DNA of 37,358 nucleotides. It comes from Mycobacteriales bacterium (lineage in GTDB: Bacteria > Actinomycetota > Actinomycetes > Mycobacteriales > SCTD01). This document shows positions 14,708 to 24,353 of the stretch, piece by piece. Location of the stretch: contig JBBDWV010000045.1 of assembly GCA_040902655.1 (NCBI GenBank), positions 1-37,358 on the forward strand, in the 5' to 3' direction. The notes below the pieces were generated by a model that was not told the DNA's origin, made no database searches, and saw only the letters and a list, made by a program, of their open reading frames with translations. The translations under genes were made by a program, and so were the position numbers. Position 1 is the stretch's first letter. Each line of letters starts with the position of its first letter.

Positions 14708-14723
14708 GGAAGTCGTCCTCTCC

Positions 14724-15443
14724 TCAGGGTGTGCCTGGCGAGCCGGGAACAGGCTGCACCAGACTGCCGACCGCCGGCGCGCTGCCGTCGATCATCGAGT
14801 GGCGCAGGGAGGCGCGTGCGGCCCGCACGTGTGACCGCATGACGGACTCGGCCCACTCGCCGTCCTGCACGAGGATGGCCTCGAGCAGCTCATGATGGTG
14901 CCCGACGCTACGCGCGCGCTCGCGATCGGTGTACCGCTGCATGGTGCGTACGACGAGCGGCCGCTGGATGACCGTCCCGAGCAGTTCCATGACCTGCCGG
15001 TTGCCGGCGGCCTGGTGGACGGCGCTGTGGAACTGCAGATTCAACCTGGTCAGTTCGTTGTAGCTCTCGTCGCCGCCGCGGCGCAGCTGTACGTCCATCG
15101 CTCGGCACAGCTCTTGCAGCGCCGGCACGTCGACGCTGTCCGCGGTGAACCGCTCCGCGGCCCGCCGCGCCGCGTAGCCCTCCAGCAGGCTGCGCATGTC
15201 GTATATCTCGTCCAGCTGCTCGGCACTCCACTCGCTCGCGACGGTCGCGCCGCGGTTGGGCAGGATCTCGACCAGTCCCTCGGCCCGGAGGCGCTGCAGG
15301 GCCTCGCGGACCGGTGTGCGACTCACCCCGGTCGAGGCGGCGATCTCCTCTTCACGCAGCCAGCTTCCGGCGGGGTGCCTGCCCTCCAGGATCTGGCGCC
15401 GGACCGCTGCGTAGGCGGCGTCTGCTGCTCTCGCCATCTCCAT
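14724..15443 (-). CDS. GntR family regulator, FCD (FadR) subfamily
   Basis: A 239-residue repressor-type regulator. The winged helix (about 8-75) has the GntR signature LREEEIAASTGVSRTPVREA followed by LQRLRAEGLVEILPNRGATV. The C-terminal all-helical FCD domain (about 85-220) includes MRSLLEGYAARRAAERF, LNLQFHSAVHQAAGNRQVME and the VGHHHELLEAI segment, whose histidines commonly bind a metal and the effector, usually a small carboxylate. It is transcribed away from the VOC-CoA-ligase-lyase operon. Two GTATAC-centred sites lie in the shared 328-base gap, so it most likely represses that operon until the pathway substrate appears. ATG 15443 is chosen; ATG 15437, two codons later, is equally possible. 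Neither has a strong ribosome-binding site. Confidence 0.92.
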   Translation of the reverse strand: MEMARAADAAYAAVRRQILEGRHPAGSWLREEEIAASTGVSRTPVREALQRLRAEGLVEILPNRGATVASEWSAEQLDEIYDMRSLLEGYAARRAAERFTADSVDVPALQELCRAMDVQLRRGGDESYNELTRLNLQFHSAVHQAAGNRQVMELLGTVIQRPLVVRTMQRYTDRERARSVGHHHELLEAILVQDGEWAESVMRSHVRAARASLRHSMIDGSAPAVGSLVQPVPGSPGTP

Positions 15444-15549
15444 GCTCGCAGTTCTCGAAGGCTCCGGCGTGCCGCGGCTGCCAGTGCGGATCGGGTGCCG
15501 GGAGCGTAGAGGACCCGGCGCGCGCTCGGTTTCCCGCGCCTTTCGGCCA

Positions 15550-15567
15550 CCGGCTCGAACGAGCCGG
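15550..15567. promoter_or_regulatory. 18-bp perfect palindrome in the GntR-VOC gap
   Basis: CCGGCTCG and CGAGCCGG form perfect 8-base arms about an AA centre. It sits between the GntR gene and the first GTATAC site. It may be an operator for another regulator. As RNA it would make a short hairpin with a 2-base loop, which is too tight for a normal terminator. Confidence 0.35.
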
Positions 15568-15578
15568 AATCAGGTCAC

Positions 15579-15588
15579 TTGTATACCG
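15579..15588. promoter_or_regulatory. Candidate GntR operator 1
   Basis: TTGTATACCG holds the GTATAC core with a TT left flank and fits the T-N-GT-NN-AC-N-A type pattern of FCD regulators at all but the last position. It is paired with a second site 123 bases downstream in the opposite orientation, and it lies on the GntR-promoter side of the gap. Confidence 0.45.
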
Positions 15589-15655
15589 GCAGCCCGGTAA
15601 AGCCTGGTGACGCGGGCTCTGGCTAACCCTCTCGATTCTCCCTCCCGGCGGGTCC

Positions 15656-15661
15656 TTGACC
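15656..15661 (+). promoter_or_regulatory. Candidate -35 box of the catabolic operon
   Basis: TTGACC is a good -35 hexamer. A -10 box 17-18 bases downstream would fall at 15679-15685, where only weak matches (AAGTGT or AGTGTT) occur. Transcription would then start just upstream of operator 2 at 15701, a sensible place for repression. The rest of the 328-base gap (15444-15771) holds operator 1, the palindrome and no ORF of note. Confidence 0.35.
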
Positions 15662-15700
15662 AGGGTGTGTGACTGTGCAAGTGTTCTACGTCACAGTCGA

Positions 15701-15710
15701 TCGTATACAA
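15701..15710. promoter_or_regulatory. Candidate GntR operator 2
   Basis: TCGTATACAA fits the T-N-GT-NN-AC-N-A pattern fully and shares the TTGTATAC octamer with operator 1 on the opposite strand. It lies downstream of the presumed -10 region of the VOC operon, where a bound repressor would block RNA polymerase. Confidence 0.5.
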
Positions 15711-15771
15711 CCTGCCCTTTGTGCGCGCGATTGCTGGTCCGCCCGCGGGGGCTCGACGGAAGGACACAGAC

Positions 15772-16257
15772 GTGCCGACGTACCAAGGCGTCAACCATCT
15801 CGCGCTGGTGACCAATGACATGGATGCCACGGTCCGGTTCTACCGGGACGTGCTCGGCATGCGCCTCGTCGGCACCACCGGCGATCCGAAGGCCGACTAT
15901 CCCTACCGCCACTACTTCTTCAGCCTGGGTCCTGGCCACGCCATCGCCTTCTTCGAGTGGCCCGAGGTGCAGCTCCCTGTCCGCAAGGACTCCGGCATCC
16001 CGGCCTCCGGGATCCTGTTCGACCACGTGTCGATCAACGTCTCGTCGGAGGGCGATCTCGACGCACTGCAGGCCTCTCTGCGCGCGGGTGGCTACGACGC
16101 CAGCGACCTCGTCGACCACGGGTTCATCCGCTCGCTCTACTGCACCGATCCCAACGGAATCTCGCTGGAGTTCTCGGTCTCTTCACGTGATCTCGACGAG
16201 GACCCGCTCTTCGAGGACGTCGACCCGGTGCCCGCGGTCGCCGCAGTGGCCCGCTGA
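15772..16257 (+). CDS. VOC family protein, glyoxalase/extradiol-dioxygenase-like
   Basis: A 161-residue vicinal-oxygen-chelate protein with two beta-alpha-beta-beta-beta modules in one chain. Likely metal ligands are H9 (GVNHLAL), H85 (FDHVSI) and E133 (LEFS), with E62 (FFEWPE) as a possible fourth. This set occurs in glyoxalase I, methylmalonyl-CoA epimerase and type I extradiol dioxygenases. The sequence cannot decide between them. GTG 15772 is chosen because the sequence before it is not VOC-like and GGAAGG lies 8 bases upstream. It is the first gene of the presumed operon and likely acts on the pathway substrate or an intermediate: epimerisation, isomerisation or ring opening. Confidence 0.85.
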   Translation: MPTYQGVNHLALVTNDMDATVRFYRDVLGMRLVGTTGDPKADYPYRHYFFSLGPGHAIAFFEWPEVQLPVRKDSGIPASGILFDHVSINVSSEGDLDALQASLRAGGYDASDLVDHGFIRSLYCTDPNGISLEFSVSSRDLDEDPLFEDVDPVPAVAAVAR

Positions 16258-16356
16258 TCTCGTTCCGCCCCGCCCCGGCCTCCTCCCGTGCTGCCGGATG
16301 CCTGTCGCGCCCCCTGTCCTGCGGCGCCCGTCCCGAAGATCCCGATAGGAGCGCAC

Positions 16357-17202
16357 ATGACCATCACGCCGCCTGCACCGACACGCATCGACGTCACGAC
16401 GTTCTCCGGCAAGGACCATCTGCTGGGTCTCATCCGCGAGGAGTACTCGCACACCCTCGAGATGGTGACAGGCACGAGCGAGCAGGAGTGGGACCTGCCC
16501 ACCCCCTGTTCGATGTGGCAGGTCCGGGACCTCGTCGGGCACCTGCTCGACGTCTCCTTCTCCTACATCGGCTACTTCAAGCAGGGCGAGCGGGGCTGGC
16601 CCACCCAGGAGCCCAAGGGCATGCGGGCCTACGGCGCGGGGCTGGGCAAGAGCGCGCTGCTCCACCACGACCTGGACAAGTGGGAGGCGCTCAGCCGGCT
16701 CGACGCCTGCAACGAGCTGCTCTTCGGCTATTTCGACAAGCTGACCGAAGACGAGTGGTCCGGTCGCCTGGTGCCGCACGGCTGGGTGGGTCCCGTCCCC
16801 GCCTTCATGATGGCGGCCTTCCAGCTGATGGACTACTCGGTGCACAACTGGGACTTCCGCAAGGCGCTGGGCCGGGAGGCAACGGTGCACGCGGACTCAG
16901 CGAACACTCTGACGCCCTTCATGTTCGGCCTGATGCAACTGTGCTTCGCCCCCGAGGTGGCCGGCGACCTCGACCTGACCGTCTGCATCGAGATCTCGCC
17001 GGCCGAGGGGGACGTCTGGACGGTGCGGATAGCCGACGGTGCACTCACCTACGAGCCGGGCCGTCCGGCGGCTCCTGACGCCACCTTCACCTTCGGCTGC
17101 GCCGAGTTCTGTCTCGACGTCTACCAGCGGATCCAGGGCGGACAGGCCACCGGCAAGGCGGAGAGCATCGAGGCTTTCCGGAAGCTGTTCTTCACCATCT
17201 GA
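16357..17202 (+). CDS. Maleylpyruvate isomerase family, mycothiol-dependent enzyme
   Basis: A 281-residue protein of the MDMPI/DinB-like family with an SCP2-like C-terminal part. The N-terminal four-helix bundle (about 20-175) carries the signature LPTPCSMWQVRDLVGHLL with metal ligand H62, and SVHNWDFRKALGR with H163. The C-terminal 100 residues (VCIEISPAEGDVWTVRIADG and onward) resemble the sterol-carrier-like domain seen in many members. Characterised relatives use mycothiol to isomerise maleylpyruvate in gentisate breakdown. The family is broad, so this substrate should not be assumed. ATG 16357 follows TAGGAG with a good spacer. The 99 bases before it contain nothing recognisable. The next gene begins 27 bases after its stop. 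Confidence 0.82.
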   Translation: MTITPPAPTRIDVTTFSGKDHLLGLIREEYSHTLEMVTGTSEQEWDLPTPCSMWQVRDLVGHLLDVSFSYIGYFKQGERGWPTQEPKGMRAYGAGLGKSALLHHDLDKWEALSRLDACNELLFGYFDKLTEDEWSGRLVPHGWVGPVPAFMMAAFQLMDYSVHNWDFRKALGREATVHADSANTLTPFMFGLMQLCFAPEVAGDLDLTVCIEISPAEGDVWTVRIADGALTYEPGRPAAPDATFTFGCAEFCLDVYQRIQGGQATGKAESIEAFRKLFFTI

Positions 17203-17229
17203 GGCCCGTACGACCCTCGAGGAGTTCCT

Positions 17230-18468
17230 GTGACGATGACGGCTGCAGACGGCGGTCCACTGCCCGAAGCGGCCGGTCCACTGGGCGGTGTGCGGGTCGT
17301 GGAGGTCGGGAGCCTGATCGCCGGCCCGTTCGCCGGCCGGATGCTCGCGGACTTCGGCGCCGAGGTCGTCAAGGTGGAGAATCCGGCGCGACCGGACCCG
17401 CTCCGGCAGTGGGGGGCACCGGACGAGCACGACCGGACCTCCTGGTGGGCGGTGCAGTCACGGAACAAGAGCTGCGTCACGCTGGACCTGGGCAGCCACC
17501 GCGGGCGAGAGCTGTTCCTGGACCTGGTCGGATCCGCGGACGTGCTGCTGGAAAATCTCCGGCCCGGCAGTCTGGAGGACCTCGGACTGGCTCCGGAGGT
17601 TCTGCTCGAGCGCAACCCCCGGCTCGTCCTGGCCCGGGTTTCCGGCTTCGGCCAGACCGGGCCGGACAGCGGGCGGGCCGGCTACGCCTCCGTGGCCGAA
17701 GCGGTCGGGGGGTTGCGGCATCTCAACGGTTTTCCGGACCTGCCGCCACCCCGGACGGGCCTGTCGCTCGGGGACAGCCTGGGGGCGCTGTTCGCCGTGC
17801 AGGGGATTCTCACCGCCCTGTACTGGAGGGACGCCCGCGGGGGATCCGGCCAGGTGGTGGACTGCTCGCTGGTCGAGGCCTGCTTCGCCATGCTGGAGAG
17901 CGTCGTTCCCGAATACGCCGCCACCGGCAACGTGCGGGGACCCTCGGGGACCCGCCTGGACGGCATCGCGCCCTCCAACATCTTCCGGACAGCCGACGGC
18001 ACCTGGATGGTCGTCGCCGCCAATCAGGACACCGTCTTCACGCGGTTGTGCACCGCCATGGGCCGGCCCGAGCTGGTCGAGGACCCCCGCTTCTCGACGC
18101 ACCAGGCCCGCGGCCGGAACCAGGAGGAGATCGAGGATGTGGTCGCTCAGTGGTGCGCGAGCTACGACAGCGGCGAGTTGAGCAAGCTGCTGGACGAGTG
18201 CGGCGTGCCCTGCGGGCCCGTCAACAGCGTGGCGGACATCTTCGCCGACCCGCTCTTCCGCCAGCGGGGGATGCTGTTGTCGGTCCCGGACGACCAGGGC
18301 GGCGAGGTCGTGATGCCGGGCATCGTGCCCAAGCTGACGCGTAGCCCCGGACACGTGAGGTGGGCCGGGCCCTCGGTCCCCGGACGTGACAACGAGGCGG
18401 TGTTCGGCACCCTCCTGGGCCTGGCAGACCATGAGCTGGCGGACCTGGCCCGCGAGGGGGTCATCTGA
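17230..18468 (+). CDS. Class III CoA-transferase, CaiB/BaiF family
   Basis: A 412-residue member of the formyl-CoA-transferase/CaiB-BaiF family, which moves CoA between carboxylic acids through an aspartyl-CoA thioester. The N-terminus GVRVVEVGSLIAGPFAGRML, DFGAEVVKVENP and NKSCVTLDL are family signatures. The catalytic aspartate is D182 in SLGDSLGAL. LLDECGVPCGPVNSVADIFADP and GGEVVMPGIVPKL mark the C-terminal part of the fold. The protein is full length and appears active. It probably loads the pathway acid with CoA from a downstream product. GTG 17230 has GAGGAG at about 17218-17223. Its TGA overlaps the ATG of a 12-codon mini-ORF leading to the next gene. Confidence 0.93.
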   Translation: MTMTAADGGPLPEAAGPLGGVRVVEVGSLIAGPFAGRMLADFGAEVVKVENPARPDPLRQWGAPDEHDRTSWWAVQSRNKSCVTLDLGSHRGRELFLDLVGSADVLLENLRPGSLEDLGLAPEVLLERNPRLVLARVSGFGQTGPDSGRAGYASVAEAVGGLRHLNGFPDLPPPRTGLSLGDSLGALFAVQGILTALYWRDARGGSGQVVDCSLVEACFAMLESVVPEYAATGNVRGPSGTRLDGIAPSNIFRTADGTWMVVAANQDTVFTRLCTAMGRPELVEDPRFSTHQARGRNQEEIEDVVAQWCASYDSGELSKLLDECGVPCGPVNSVADIFADPLFRQRGMLLSVPDDQGGEVVMPGIVPKLTRSPGHVRWAGPSVPGRDNEAVFGTLLGLADHELADLAREGVI

Positions 18469-18506
18469 TGTGCCCGTTGCGCGCTGACACCTTCCCCGCA
18501 TGGTGA
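18468..18506 (+). other. 12-codon mini-ORF coupling the CoA-transferase and SnoaL genes
   Basis: ATG 18468 overlaps the CoA-transferase TGA and has GAGGGGG about 7 bases upstream. The frame (MCPLRADTFPAW) ends in a TGA that overlaps the GTG at 18503, second codon of the SnoaL-like gene. That gene has no ribosome-binding site of its own. A ribosome reading the mini-ORF would stop exactly at the next start. Coupling is inferred. Confidence 0.35.
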
Positions 18507-18943
18507 CCCGCGCGTCGGCCCTGGACACGTTCTCGGTGTGGCACGTCGCCCACGAACAGCGGGACCTGGACGGGCTCCGGGGCGTCCTGGACGACGACGT
18601 CGAGGTGCACTCCCTGTTCCGACCGGCGCCGGTGCGCGGCCGCGACCTCGCCGTGGACCACTTCTCCCACACGATGCGGACCTTCGCCGACCTCGCCATG
18701 CCTGTCGTGGCCGGGCCGGCCGCTGCCGACAGCGGCGTCGTCTTCGCCGAGGTGGAGTTCGCCGGGACGTTCACCGGGATGTTGCAGTGGGCCGGGACGG
18801 CGCACATCGGCCAGGCCCAGGCCTTCCGGGTCGACGGTGCTGTCGTCCTGCACACGGACGGCGGGCGGGTGTGCTCGGTGCGGACGCTGTTCGACCGGGA
18901 CGCCTGGCTGCGCCAGATCGGCGTGCTGCCGGGCTCCGCATGA
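18500..18943 (+). CDS. SnoaL-like / NTF2-like small protein
   Basis: A 147-residue protein with the cone-shaped alpha+beta pattern of the NTF2/SnoaL superfamily. An N-terminal helix ALDTFSVWHVAHEQRDLDGL is followed by LDDDVEVHSLF, the helix VDHFSHTMRTF, and strands VVFAEVEFAGTF, AQAFRVDGAVV and VCSVRTLFDR. Such proteins are often isomerases, dehydratases or binding proteins. No specific catalytic residue can be assigned, although H36 and several buried acids are candidates. ATG 18500 and GTG 18503 are both possible starts. There is no Shine-Dalgarno sequence, but the preceding mini-ORF ends right here. Same strand and tight spacing place it in the catabolic operon. Confidence 0.75.
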   Translation: MVTRASALDTFSVWHVAHEQRDLDGLRGVLDDDVEVHSLFRPAPVRGRDLAVDHFSHTMRTFADLAMPVVAGPAAADSGVVFAEVEFAGTFTGMLQWAGTAHIGQAQAFRVDGAVVLHTDGGRVCSVRTLFDRDAWLRQIGVLPGSA

Positions 18944-19010
18944 CGCCCCGTGGACCGGGCCCGTCCGGCTCCGGCAGACCGTGCACGCGTCCTCGACCAG
19001 GAAGGCCACC

Positions 19011-20525
19011 ATGGCAGGCGACCTGCTGACGATTCCCGAATTCCTCGAGCAGGGAGCGAACCGCTGGCCCGACGCGCCGTGGTGGCTGGCCGGCGAGCCG
19101 GTCCCGGTCAGCCGGGCAGCGGCGTATGAGTCGGCGCGTCGGGTGGCCGGCGGGCTGCGGGCCCTCGGCGTCGAACCCGGAGACCGCGTCGTGGTCGTGC
19201 TCCCGAACGGCCTGGACTTCGTGCGGGCCTGGTTCGGGACGGTGCTGGCCGGCGGCGTGGTGATCGGTGTGAACCCTGCGGCGGCCGCCGCCGAACTCGC
19301 TGCCGTCGTGGCGAAGGCGGCGGCATCCGTGGTCGTCGCGGACGAGCAGCGTCCGCTGCCGGCCGGCGTCCGGACCGTCGAGGTGGGCGATCTGGACGCG
19401 GCCTCCCCGTTGGCCCCCGTCACCACGTCCCCTGAACAACCGGCATCCTGCATCCAGAGCAGCGGCAGCACCGGGGAGCCGAAGTTCGTCGTCGAGACCC
19501 ATGCCATGTACACGGCGGCGGCCGAGGGGTTCCCGTTCTGGCTGGGGCTGACGGAGGACGACGTGCTGCTCACGACGCTTCCGCTCTCGCACCTGAACGC
19601 GCAGGCGTACTCGACCCTGGGCTCCTACGGCGCCGGTGCGCGGCTCGCCCTGCTGCCGCGCTTCTCGGCAAGCAGCTTCTGGGACCAGGTCCGCCGGTAC
19701 GGCGCGACCCAGTTCAACGCGATCGGGGCCATGGTGGAGATCCTCATGGCGCAGCCGCCTTCGCCGGCGGAGCGGGACCACAGCATGCGGCTGTGCTACT
19801 CCGCGCCGGCCCCGACGGAGCAGCGCCACCGGGAGATCGAGGAGCGGCTCGGTCTCCGCCTCGTCATCGGCTACGCGCTGTCCGAGACGCCGTACGGCCT
19901 CATCTCGCCCGTGGACCGGCCTGCCGTGTACGGCTCGATGGGCCGCCCGCGACAGCATCCGCGGCTCGGTGAGGTCAATCACGCGCGGGTGGTGGATGGG
20001 GTGGGTCGGGACGTCGCCCCTGGGGTCGTGGGGGAGCTCCTGCTGCAGAACCCGTTCACGACACCGGGGTATCTCGACCAGCCCGAGGCCAGCGCACAGA
20101 TCATGCGCGACGGCTGGCTGCGCACCGGTGACCTGGCATCCTGCGACGCCAACGGGGACTACTACTTCGCCGGACGTCTGAAGGAGACGATCCGGCGCCG
20201 TGGGGAGAACCTGTCGCCGGCCGAGGTCGAGAACGTCATCGAGGCGCACCCCGCGGTCACCTCGAGCGCCGTGATCGGGGTGCCGTCGCCGTTGACCGAG
20301 GAGGACATCAAGGCCTTCGTCATGCTGCGGCCGGGCGCCTCCCTGTCCCCCGACGAGCTGGTGAACTGGTGGTCCGACCGCCTGCCGCCCTACAAGCGGC
20401 CGCGGTACCTCGAGTTCGTCGACGGCTGGCCACTGACCGAGACGCAGAAGATCGCCAAGACCAGGCTCCCGCGGGAGCGGACCGCGGCCGAGGCCGACCT
20501 CCAGAAGGGCCCGATCCATGCCTGA
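19011..20525 (+). CDS. Acyl-CoA ligase, AMP-forming
   Basis: A 504-residue ANL-superfamily ligase that activates a carboxylate to its CoA thioester through an acyl-adenylate. The phosphate-binding loop is SSGSTGEPK (150-158). ALSETPYGL is the A5 motif, RTGDLASCDANGDYYFAGRL the A7-A8 hinge region, and GENLSPAEVENVIEAHPAV follows. The C-terminal catalytic lysine is K480 in TQKIAK. It resembles the crotonobetaine/carnitine-CoA and short-to-medium acyl-CoA ligases; the true substrate is unknown. ATG 19011 follows AGGAAGG and matches the normal ANL N-terminus (LTIPEFLEQGANRWPDAPWW). The frame runs open to 18837 but the extra part is not ligase-like. It overlaps the lyase-like gene by 8 bases, so the two are coupled. 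Confidence 0.92.
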   Translation: MAGDLLTIPEFLEQGANRWPDAPWWLAGEPVPVSRAAAYESARRVAGGLRALGVEPGDRVVVVLPNGLDFVRAWFGTVLAGGVVIGVNPAAAAAELAAVVAKAAASVVVADEQRPLPAGVRTVEVGDLDAASPLAPVTTSPEQPASCIQSSGSTGEPKFVVETHAMYTAAAEGFPFWLGLTEDDVLLTTLPLSHLNAQAYSTLGSYGAGARLALLPRFSASSFWDQVRRYGATQFNAIGAMVEILMAQPPSPAERDHSMRLCYSAPAPTEQRHREIEERLGLRLVIGYALSETPYGLISPVDRPAVYGSMGRPRQHPRLGEVNHARVVDGVGRDVAPGVVGELLLQNPFTTPGYLDQPEASAQIMRDGWLRTGDLASCDANGDYYFAGRLKETIRRRGENLSPAEVENVIEAHPAVTSSAVIGVPSPLTEEDIKAFVMLRPGASLSPDELVNWWSDRLPPYKRPRYLEFVDGWPLTETQKIAKTRLPRERTAAEADLQKGPIHA

Positions 20526-21318
20526 GCAGCCGCCGTTCCGCAGCGACATCGCCAGCTCCACCGCTGACACGATCACGGTTCGGGGCTTCGACCTCACCGA
20601 GGAACTGATGGGACACCTCGACTTCGGGTCGATGTGCTTCCTGCTGCTGTCCGGGCGGCAACCCAGTGACGCCGAAGGCCGGCTGTTCAACGCGGTCCTC
20701 GTGGGCCTCGCCGAGCACGGGCTGACGCCCAGCGCGATCGCCACCCGGCTCACCTTCACCGGTGCACCCGAGGCCGTGCAGGGGGCCGTCGCTGCCGGCA
20801 TCCTCGGGGCCGGCTCGGTCTTCCTCGGCGTCGTGGACGACGCGGCGCGGATGCTGCAGTCCGCCGGGCCGGACCCGGCGGCGGACAGCACTTCGCTGCG
20901 CGCCCTGGCGGAGGAGATCGTCGACCGCTTCCTGGCCAGTGGGGCCGAGCGGCTACCCGGGGTGGGTCACCCGATCCACCGCAACGGCGACCCGCGCACG
21001 GTCCGCCTGTTCGGGCTGGCCGACGAACTCGGCGTGGCCGGTCCCCACATCCGCCTGATGGAGGCCGTGGGGCAGGCCATGACCGACCGCAGGGGCGGCT
21101 ATCTGCCGGTGAACGGCGCCGGCGCCTCGGCCGCTGCCCTGTCCGATCTGGGCCTGCACTGGCGGGTGCTGCGCGGTGTCGCCGTCATCGCCCGGACCGG
21201 TGGCCTGGTCGGTCACCTCGAGGAGGAGCGGGTCCGGCCGATCGGGGCGGGTCTGTGGCGGTGGCTGGACGACGTGGCGGTCGCCAACAGCGCTGCTGCC
21301 CACGTGGGGGAGCGTTAG
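20518..21318 (+). CDS. Citryl-CoA lyase-like protein, citrate synthase superfamily
   Basis: A 266-residue short member of the citrate-synthase fold, the size of proteins annotated as citryl-CoA lyase. Two of the three catalytic positions are recognisable: H67 in AEHGLTPSAIATRL (as in citrate synthase D-H-x-x-N) and H151 in GVGHPIHRNGDPRT. The third, the aspartate normally found in a P-N-V-D-type segment, aligns by eye with LPVNGAGA (197-203), where A201 replaces it. The N-terminal domain is also shortened. It may cleave or form a C-C bond on a CoA ester by an altered mechanism, or be a non-catalytic partner. ATG 20518 overlaps the ligase stop by 8 bases. It is the last gene of the island. Confidence 0.82.
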   Translation: MPEQPPFRSDIASSTADTITVRGFDLTEELMGHLDFGSMCFLLLSGRQPSDAEGRLFNAVLVGLAEHGLTPSAIATRLTFTGAPEAVQGAVAAGILGAGSVFLGVVDDAARMLQSAGPDPAADSTSLRALAEEIVDRFLASGAERLPGVGHPIHRNGDPRTVRLFGLADELGVAGPHIRLMEAVGQAMTDRRGGYLPVNGAGASAAALSDLGLHWRVLRGVAVIARTGGLVGHLEEERVRPIGAGLWRWLDDVAVANSAAAHVGER

Positions 21319-21365
21319 CCTTGGAGGAGCCGGGCCCCTCCGGCACTGCCTCCTGATGGGACCCG

Positions 21366-24353
<2,988 letters not shown>

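Follow-up and report, generated by a model that had tools for sequence, protein, structure and literature searches.

Citryl-CoA-lyase-like proteins lacking the catalytic aspartate form a conserved clade that possibly cleaves other CoA thioesters

The last gene of a seven-gene block in the analysed window, a 37,358-nucleotide stretch of contig JBBDWV010000045.1 from a Mycobacteriales bacterium, codes for a citryl-CoA-lyase-like protein, here called P0001, in which both enolate-making residues of the citrate synthase active site are replaced while the residues binding the oxoacid or hydroxyacid are kept. Judging from its sequence, P0001 is best explained as an active enzyme of a distinct, old clade, not a citryl-CoA lyase but a C–C lyase working in the cleavage direction on CoA thioesters of the malyl or citramalyl type, a reading which we favour tentatively and with somewhat less than even confidence. 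The gene and the codons discussed below are as follows.

20518..21318, + strand, Asp-less citryl-CoA-lyase-like protein P0001, 266 aa (NF004868, PF00285; nearest solved relative 6hxp)
20716..20718, + strand, codon of H67 (pig H238, ACLY H900 column), invariant (alignments)
20770..20772, + strand, codon of E85, clade-specific invariant acidic position, candidate substitute acid (column counts)
20821..20823, + strand, codon of F102, column of the enolate-stabilising His (pig H274, E. coli H264) (alignments)
20968..20970, + strand, codon of H151 (pig H320, ACLY H975 column), invariant (alignments)
20995..20997, + strand, codon of R160 (DPR motif, pig R329 column), invariant (alignments)
21118..21120, + strand, codon of A201, catalytic-Asp column (pig D375, ACLY D1026) (profile alignments)
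21193..21195, + strand, codon of R226 (pig R401 column), invariant (alignments)

P0001 matches PF00285 (Citrate_synt) with 77.8 bits against a curated cut-off of 27, which makes it a member of the citrate synthase superfamily, and NCBIfam NF004868 with 311.1 bits against a cut-off of 193, which places it in that subfamily. Its best-matching solved structure is 6hxp, the citryl-CoA lyase of Hydrogenobacter. The citrate synthase fold is implied by this homology, and the AlphaFold2 models built with one or three sequences have low mean pLDDT values (38.7 and 43.3). Citrate synthase has three main catalytic residues, H274, H320 and D375 in pig numbering. Deprotonation is performed by Asp375 (PMC5830745), and the active-site histidines of the enzyme are listed in PMC4524684.

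The position of A201 was established by hmmsearch with a profile of 30 relatives (A1), in which the motif L-P-[VI]-N-x-[AT]-G aligns on L-V-L-N-V-D-G of 6hxp, and this NxAG/NxTG motif likewise falls on L-I-L-N-V-D-G of 6qcl (ATP-citrate lyase alpha subunit) and on NVDF of citrate synthase 1iom, in every case with no gap. N199 occupies the conserved Asn column, and A201 the Asp column of citrate synthases, ATP-citrate lyases and citryl-CoA lyase; the same column for A201 results from hhalign with a profile built on Asp-bearing relatives and from the alignment with the genome's own citrate synthase. An earlier note on this DNA, whose open reading frame, coordinates and residue numbers H67, H151 and A201 were all correct on recheck, had claimed that A201 replaces the general-base Asp, and these alignments bear it out. 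The trait is clade-wide, with Ala in 30, Thr in 12, Val in one and Asn in one of 44 clade members. That note had also named D210 as a residue that might turn out to be the catalytic acid, which is not supported: D210 was rejected as a shifted substitute because its column is acidic in Asp-less rows (95%) and in most Asp-bearing rows (77%) alike, in the latter beside an intact Asp. The assignment of N199 to the Asp column, which would mean a D-to-N change, was rejected as well, since the profile alignments show a two-column offset and A201 is the correct residue. Two divergent relatives (L057:2742-3590 and L072:4473-5318) read N-D-V-G, with Val in the Asp column and an Asp preceding it which could be a shifted acid.

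A second catalytic residue is also missing. F102 occupies the column of the enolate-stabilising His (pig H274, HGGAN motif), a position which is Phe in 38 of the 44 clade members and His in 11 of 13 Asp-bearing relatives. H151 is the His of the GHR/GHP motif (pig H320) and H67 that of DHG/DHE, an oxoacid-binding residue (pig H238, ACLY H900), so that of the two histidines previously taken as catalytic only H151 keeps this role in the alignments, H67 corresponding to H238 and not to H274. Equating H67 with H274 was rejected on the motif spacings of a Vibrio citrate synthase (35 and 41 residues), which put F102 in the H274 column; the numbering H229, H264 and H305 of the E. coli enzyme matches these spacings. 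F102 alone was rejected as a diagnostic mark because 6qcl has Phe in the same column. Neither the loss at F102 nor the age and clade-wide spread of the trait is in the earlier note.

Eight residues, H67, H151, H154, D158, R160, N199, G202 and R226, are invariant in the 44 clade members, and the Arg after H151 is replaced in the clade by Pro, His, Asn or Ser. The E85 column holds Asp or Glu in 44/44 clade members and in 0/13 of the Asp-bearing group, the D25 column is acidic in 95% of the clade versus 0% of that group, and P84, Q88, R77 and G97 are further clade-specific positions. On these column counts E85 may be regarded as a candidate substitute for the lost Asp, which would agree with the idea of the earlier note that an acid could be borrowed from elsewhere. 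Where a citryl-CoA lyase would have the Asp of N-V-D-G and, as in 6hxp, the His of the HGG motif, P0001 has A201 and F102, and the two substrate histidines and two arginines (H238, H320, R329 and R401 columns) are present as H67, H151, R160 and R226. Nor is P0001, with 266 aa, F102 and A201, a full-length two-domain citrate synthase with H274, H320 and D375. With A201 and F102 in place of the Asp and the H274-type His, both enolate-making residues are therefore lost and the oxoacid/hydroxyacid-binding set is kept.

It might still be supposed that P0001 cleaves citryl-CoA or a very close analogue, with E85 or a neighbouring acid replacing the Asp, as the NCBIfam subfamily name and the clade-specific, invariant Glu/Asp at position 85 would suggest. 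However, neither enolising residue is kept, the Arg that follows H151 has been lost, the residue in the Asp column varies (Ala, Thr, Val or Asn), and the neighbouring genes do not point to citrate, all of which makes this reading very unlikely. Some other chemistry on a bound CoA ester, namely hydration or dehydration, isomerisation or thioester hydrolysis, would agree with a pocket that has kept its ligands and lost its Claisen residues, but a hydratase, MaoC or enoyl-CoA hydratase is often encoded by a gene of its own in the clusters, and this is considered the least probable of the explanations.

The survey of the class gave a match above the family cut-off in 40 of 297 genomes, and the Asp is absent in 39 of the 40 above-cut-off proteins read, the window included, L061 being the exception. 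In the plasmid collection, relatives were found in 126 records from Actinobacteria, Alpha- and Betaproteobacteria and haloarchaea, and all 17 of those read lack the Asp; no relative was found in the viral contigs scanned. Of 61 aligned rows, 46, coming from Actinobacteria, Proteobacteria and haloarchaea, have no acid in this column but Ala, Thr, Val or Asn. In a tree of the 61 rows built without the Asp column, a single branch (81/77) sets all 46 Asp-less rows apart, and 44 of these are grouped at 99/93, which corresponds to one change of state for the Asp, with L061 and L054 as the nearest Asp-bearing rows; as several end branches are long, confidence is lower for the deepest join than elsewhere in the tree. 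The simple reading is one early loss of the Asp followed by long conservation. The family as such is known in NCBIfam as citryl-CoA lyase, and the Asp-less clade is apparently new, no description of it having been found in the literature searched, although such an absence weighs little.

The gene neighbourhoods were compared across the clade, the gene calls at unannotated neighbouring loci being our own ORF picks or tblastn matches. A gene for a CaiB transferase or for an AMP-forming or NDP-forming ligase lies no more than 300 bp away in 37 of the first 48 Asp-less loci, mostly directly upstream and on the same strand, about a fifth of these 48 having no recognised activator gene close by, and a CoA-transferase or CoA-ligase gene is within 300 bp in 13 out of 13 loci fetched later. 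The later set includes the nearest relatives elsewhere in the phylum, L137-L140, in which the neighbour is a ligase of the window type (46-58% identity), and the order of ligase followed by lyase-like gene seen in the window recurs in L137-L140, L115, L040 and L052. Since Asp-bearing relatives also adjoin CaiB in most loci, CoA activation beside the lyase-like protein may predate the loss of the Asp. At L034:8566-11564, L048, L086 and L089 the Asp-less gene adjoins an NDP-forming acyl-CoA ligase, a two-gene layout resembling parts fused in ATP-citrate lyase.

A ring-cleaving dioxygenase gene is present within 3 kb in 21 of the 48 loci (LigB type in 15, intradiol type in 6), often together with genes for an amidohydrolase and a regulator of the IclR type. 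In six loci (for example at L041:10225-10590) the LigB-type dioxygenase is followed by a conserved protein of about 120 aa that matches nothing in Pfam or NCBIfam and may be a LigA-like subunit. Members of the Thr type adjoin genes for acyl-CoA dehydrogenases, enoyl-CoA hydratases and MaoC, or for a carboxylase and HMG-CoA lyase, with TRAP or TTT transporters. On pBB2 of Cupriavidus necator N-1, which encodes the Thr-type member WP_013954332.1, the lyase-like gene, CaiB and the large and small subunits of an isopropylmalate-dehydratase-type enzyme stand in a row, and aconitase/isopropylmalate-dehydratase-type genes are found near the lyase-like gene in L036, L042 and L137 as well. Their products can make 2-alkylmalates, which supports the explanation favoured here.

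As the clade is conserved beside genes for CoA attachment and aromatic ring opening and has lost the enolate residues, it probably cleaves a CoA compound other than the one its database name says. The suggestion of the earlier note that P0001 may cleave a different CoA ester thus fits best, the oxoacid/hydroxyacid ligands being invariant and a CoA-activating gene usually adjacent. The data show directly how the residues have changed, how well the changes are conserved, that they are confined to a single branch and which genes lie nearby, whereas the class of substrate, the direction of the reaction and the proton donor are inferred. A malyl/citramalyl-type CoA thioester would be the most economical choice, given the enzymes that make alkylmalates, those that open rings and the CoA-activating functions found around the clade. 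The neighbouring CoA ligase or CaiB transferase would make the substrate, a CoA ester of the malyl, citramalyl or alkylmalyl type that carries a 3-hydroxy-3-carboxy unit. Its one-way cleavage would yield a 2-oxoacid together with an acyl-CoA and would come late in the breakdown of aromatic compounds by ring cleavage. H67, R160 and R226 would hold the carboxylate of the hydroxyacid half, H151 would take the proton of the hydroxyl group, and the enolate left after C–C cleavage may be protonated by water or another acid, for which E85 is a candidate. The Asp and the H274-type His would then be dispensable for cleavage, though needed for condensation, and loss of the Asp would harm a one-way lyase less than a synthase because protonation of the enolate is an easy step. 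It counts against cleavage without the Asp that human ACLY no longer forms acetyl-CoA when D1026A is its sole change (PMC10115795), although the authors of that study regard the module as allosteric. Moreover, given the varied neighbourhoods with dioxygenases, acyl-CoA dehydrogenases or a carboxylase with HMG-CoA lyase, one substrate class may not cover the clade.

In Rhodococcus rhodochrous BX2, beta-ketoadipate-type genes (muconolactone isomerase, dioxygenase, enolase-superfamily protein and PcaD enol-lactonase) are followed by a ligase gene, behind which lies the lyase-like gene, an order that also speaks for the favoured C–C lyase. The annotation shows no thiolase within 8 kb, and a thiolase was found in 0 of the 48 Asp-less loci. 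Such an arrangement would suit an enzyme acting in the thiolase slot on a 3-oxoacyl-CoA such as 3-oxoadipyl-CoA, in which H151 would activate water or CoA for an attack on the 3-oxo group, giving a tetrahedral adduct that resembles the alkoxide of citryl-CoA and would collapse into acetyl-CoA and an acid or acyl-CoA. Nevertheless, the absence of thiolase from about 15 kb is of little weight, being near the chance expectation (5 matches in 3.56 Mb), and 2 of the 13 later loci do have one; P0001 has no equivalent of the catalytic Cys, and we know of no such chemistry for the citrate synthase fold, so this role is judged unlikely.

The seven-gene block, of which the lyase-like gene is the last, comprises the following features besides that gene.

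14708..21365, strand (.), seven-gene block between the metallo-beta-lactamase (MBL)-fold gene and uvrA (same-genus comparison)
14724..15443, - strand, GntR/FCD regulator, probable regulator of the block (PF07729, PF00392)
15721..16257, + strand, VOC (glyoxalase / extradiol dioxygenase superfamily) protein (PF00903; weak matches to extradiol dioxygenases)
16357..17202, + strand, mycothiol maleylpyruvate isomerase / DinB-like protein (PF11716, TIGR03083)
17230..18468, + strand, CaiB/BaiF (class III) CoA-transferase (PF02515, 409 bits)
18500..18943, + strand, SnoaL-like protein (PF07366)
19011..20525, + strand, AMP-forming acyl-CoA ligase (PF00501, PF13193; translation)

In L109, L110, L112 and L113 from the same genus the MBL-fold gene directly adjoins uvrA, with about 110-230 bp between them, and the lyase-like gene was found in none of eight other genomes of the genus, several of which are incomplete drafts. 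The seven genes inserted between these two neighbours would therefore represent one acquired catabolic unit. Neither an aconitase-family gene nor a certain ring-cleaving dioxygenase is part of it, a search of the window for tRNA genes found none, and the GC content along 14708-21365 shows no clear shift except for slightly lower values at 15000-17000. A conserved GTTCTGTCGG...GTTAGCCT element precedes uvrA in L109, L110 and L112, and at 21300-21370 of the window only GTTAGCCT is left, overlapping the stop codon of the lyase-like gene, whose coding sequence replaces the TTCTGTCGG half; the insertion may have changed the regulation of uvrA.

The end of the ligase gene and the start of the lyase-like gene overlap by 8 bp, which would agree with P0001 being no lyase at all but a structural or allosteric partner that binds or shuttles CoA esters for the adjacent ligase or transferase. 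The citrate-synthase-like module of ACLY offers a parallel, for which an allosteric and not a catalytic function has been argued (PMC10115795), and in the ATP-citrate lyase subunit 6qcl the H274 column is likewise occupied by Phe. A partner role for P0001, which the earlier note had also suggested, is made less likely by a hydroxyacid pocket whose His, Arg and Asn do not vary across a deep clade, and three unrelated kinds of enzyme as partners would ill suit one conserved protein interface, hence we think it quite unlikely, and a cleavage-direction lyase is still preferred.

The branch is large, old and probably mislabelled as citryl-CoA lyase: genes of that name in many genomes, and on most annotated records among the 126 matching plasmids, belong to it. 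Since the members read lack residues required by the name, metabolic models may be in error where they take these genes as evidence of citrate cleavage or of reverse TCA steps. Should the clade be active, what a citrate synthase active site needs for cleavage becomes directly testable, a point disputed for ACLY with regard to D1026, and an unassigned step of aromatic catabolism would be indicated. It is possible, though rather doubtful, that the clade cleaves C–C bonds by a mechanism undescribed for the citrate synthase fold, one in which the Asp/His pair has no part, and that it acts as lyase, or in place of a thiolase, in an unrecognised CoA-dependent route for degrading aromatic compounds in Actinobacteria, Proteobacteria and haloarchaea.

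Among the known systems, 6hxp resembles P0001 in being a short single-domain relative of citrate synthase with the DHG, GxGH..DPR and N-x-x-G motifs common to both, and differs in having NVDG and AHGG where P0001 has NGAG and VFLG. The citrate-synthase-like module of ATP-citrate lyase (human ACLY; 6qcl) shares the kept H900 and H975 columns, the Phe at the H274 column in 6qcl and the coupling to CoA activation; unlike P0001, ACLY keeps the Asp, being inactive with Ala in place of D1026 (PMC10115795). By score P0001 is a member of NF004868 (PRK06224.1-5, the "citryl-CoA lyase" subfamily), but most of the members read lack the residues for the chemistry named, and one Asp-bearing row, L061, is above the cut-off too. 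The actinobacterial NF004864 group (PRK06224.1-1) also stands beside CaiB in most loci read and, in contrast to P0001, keeps NIDG and HGG. The reaction proposed for P0001 is one that CitE-type citramalyl-CoA lyases and HMG-CoA-lyase-type enzymes would perform with unrelated TIM-barrel folds.
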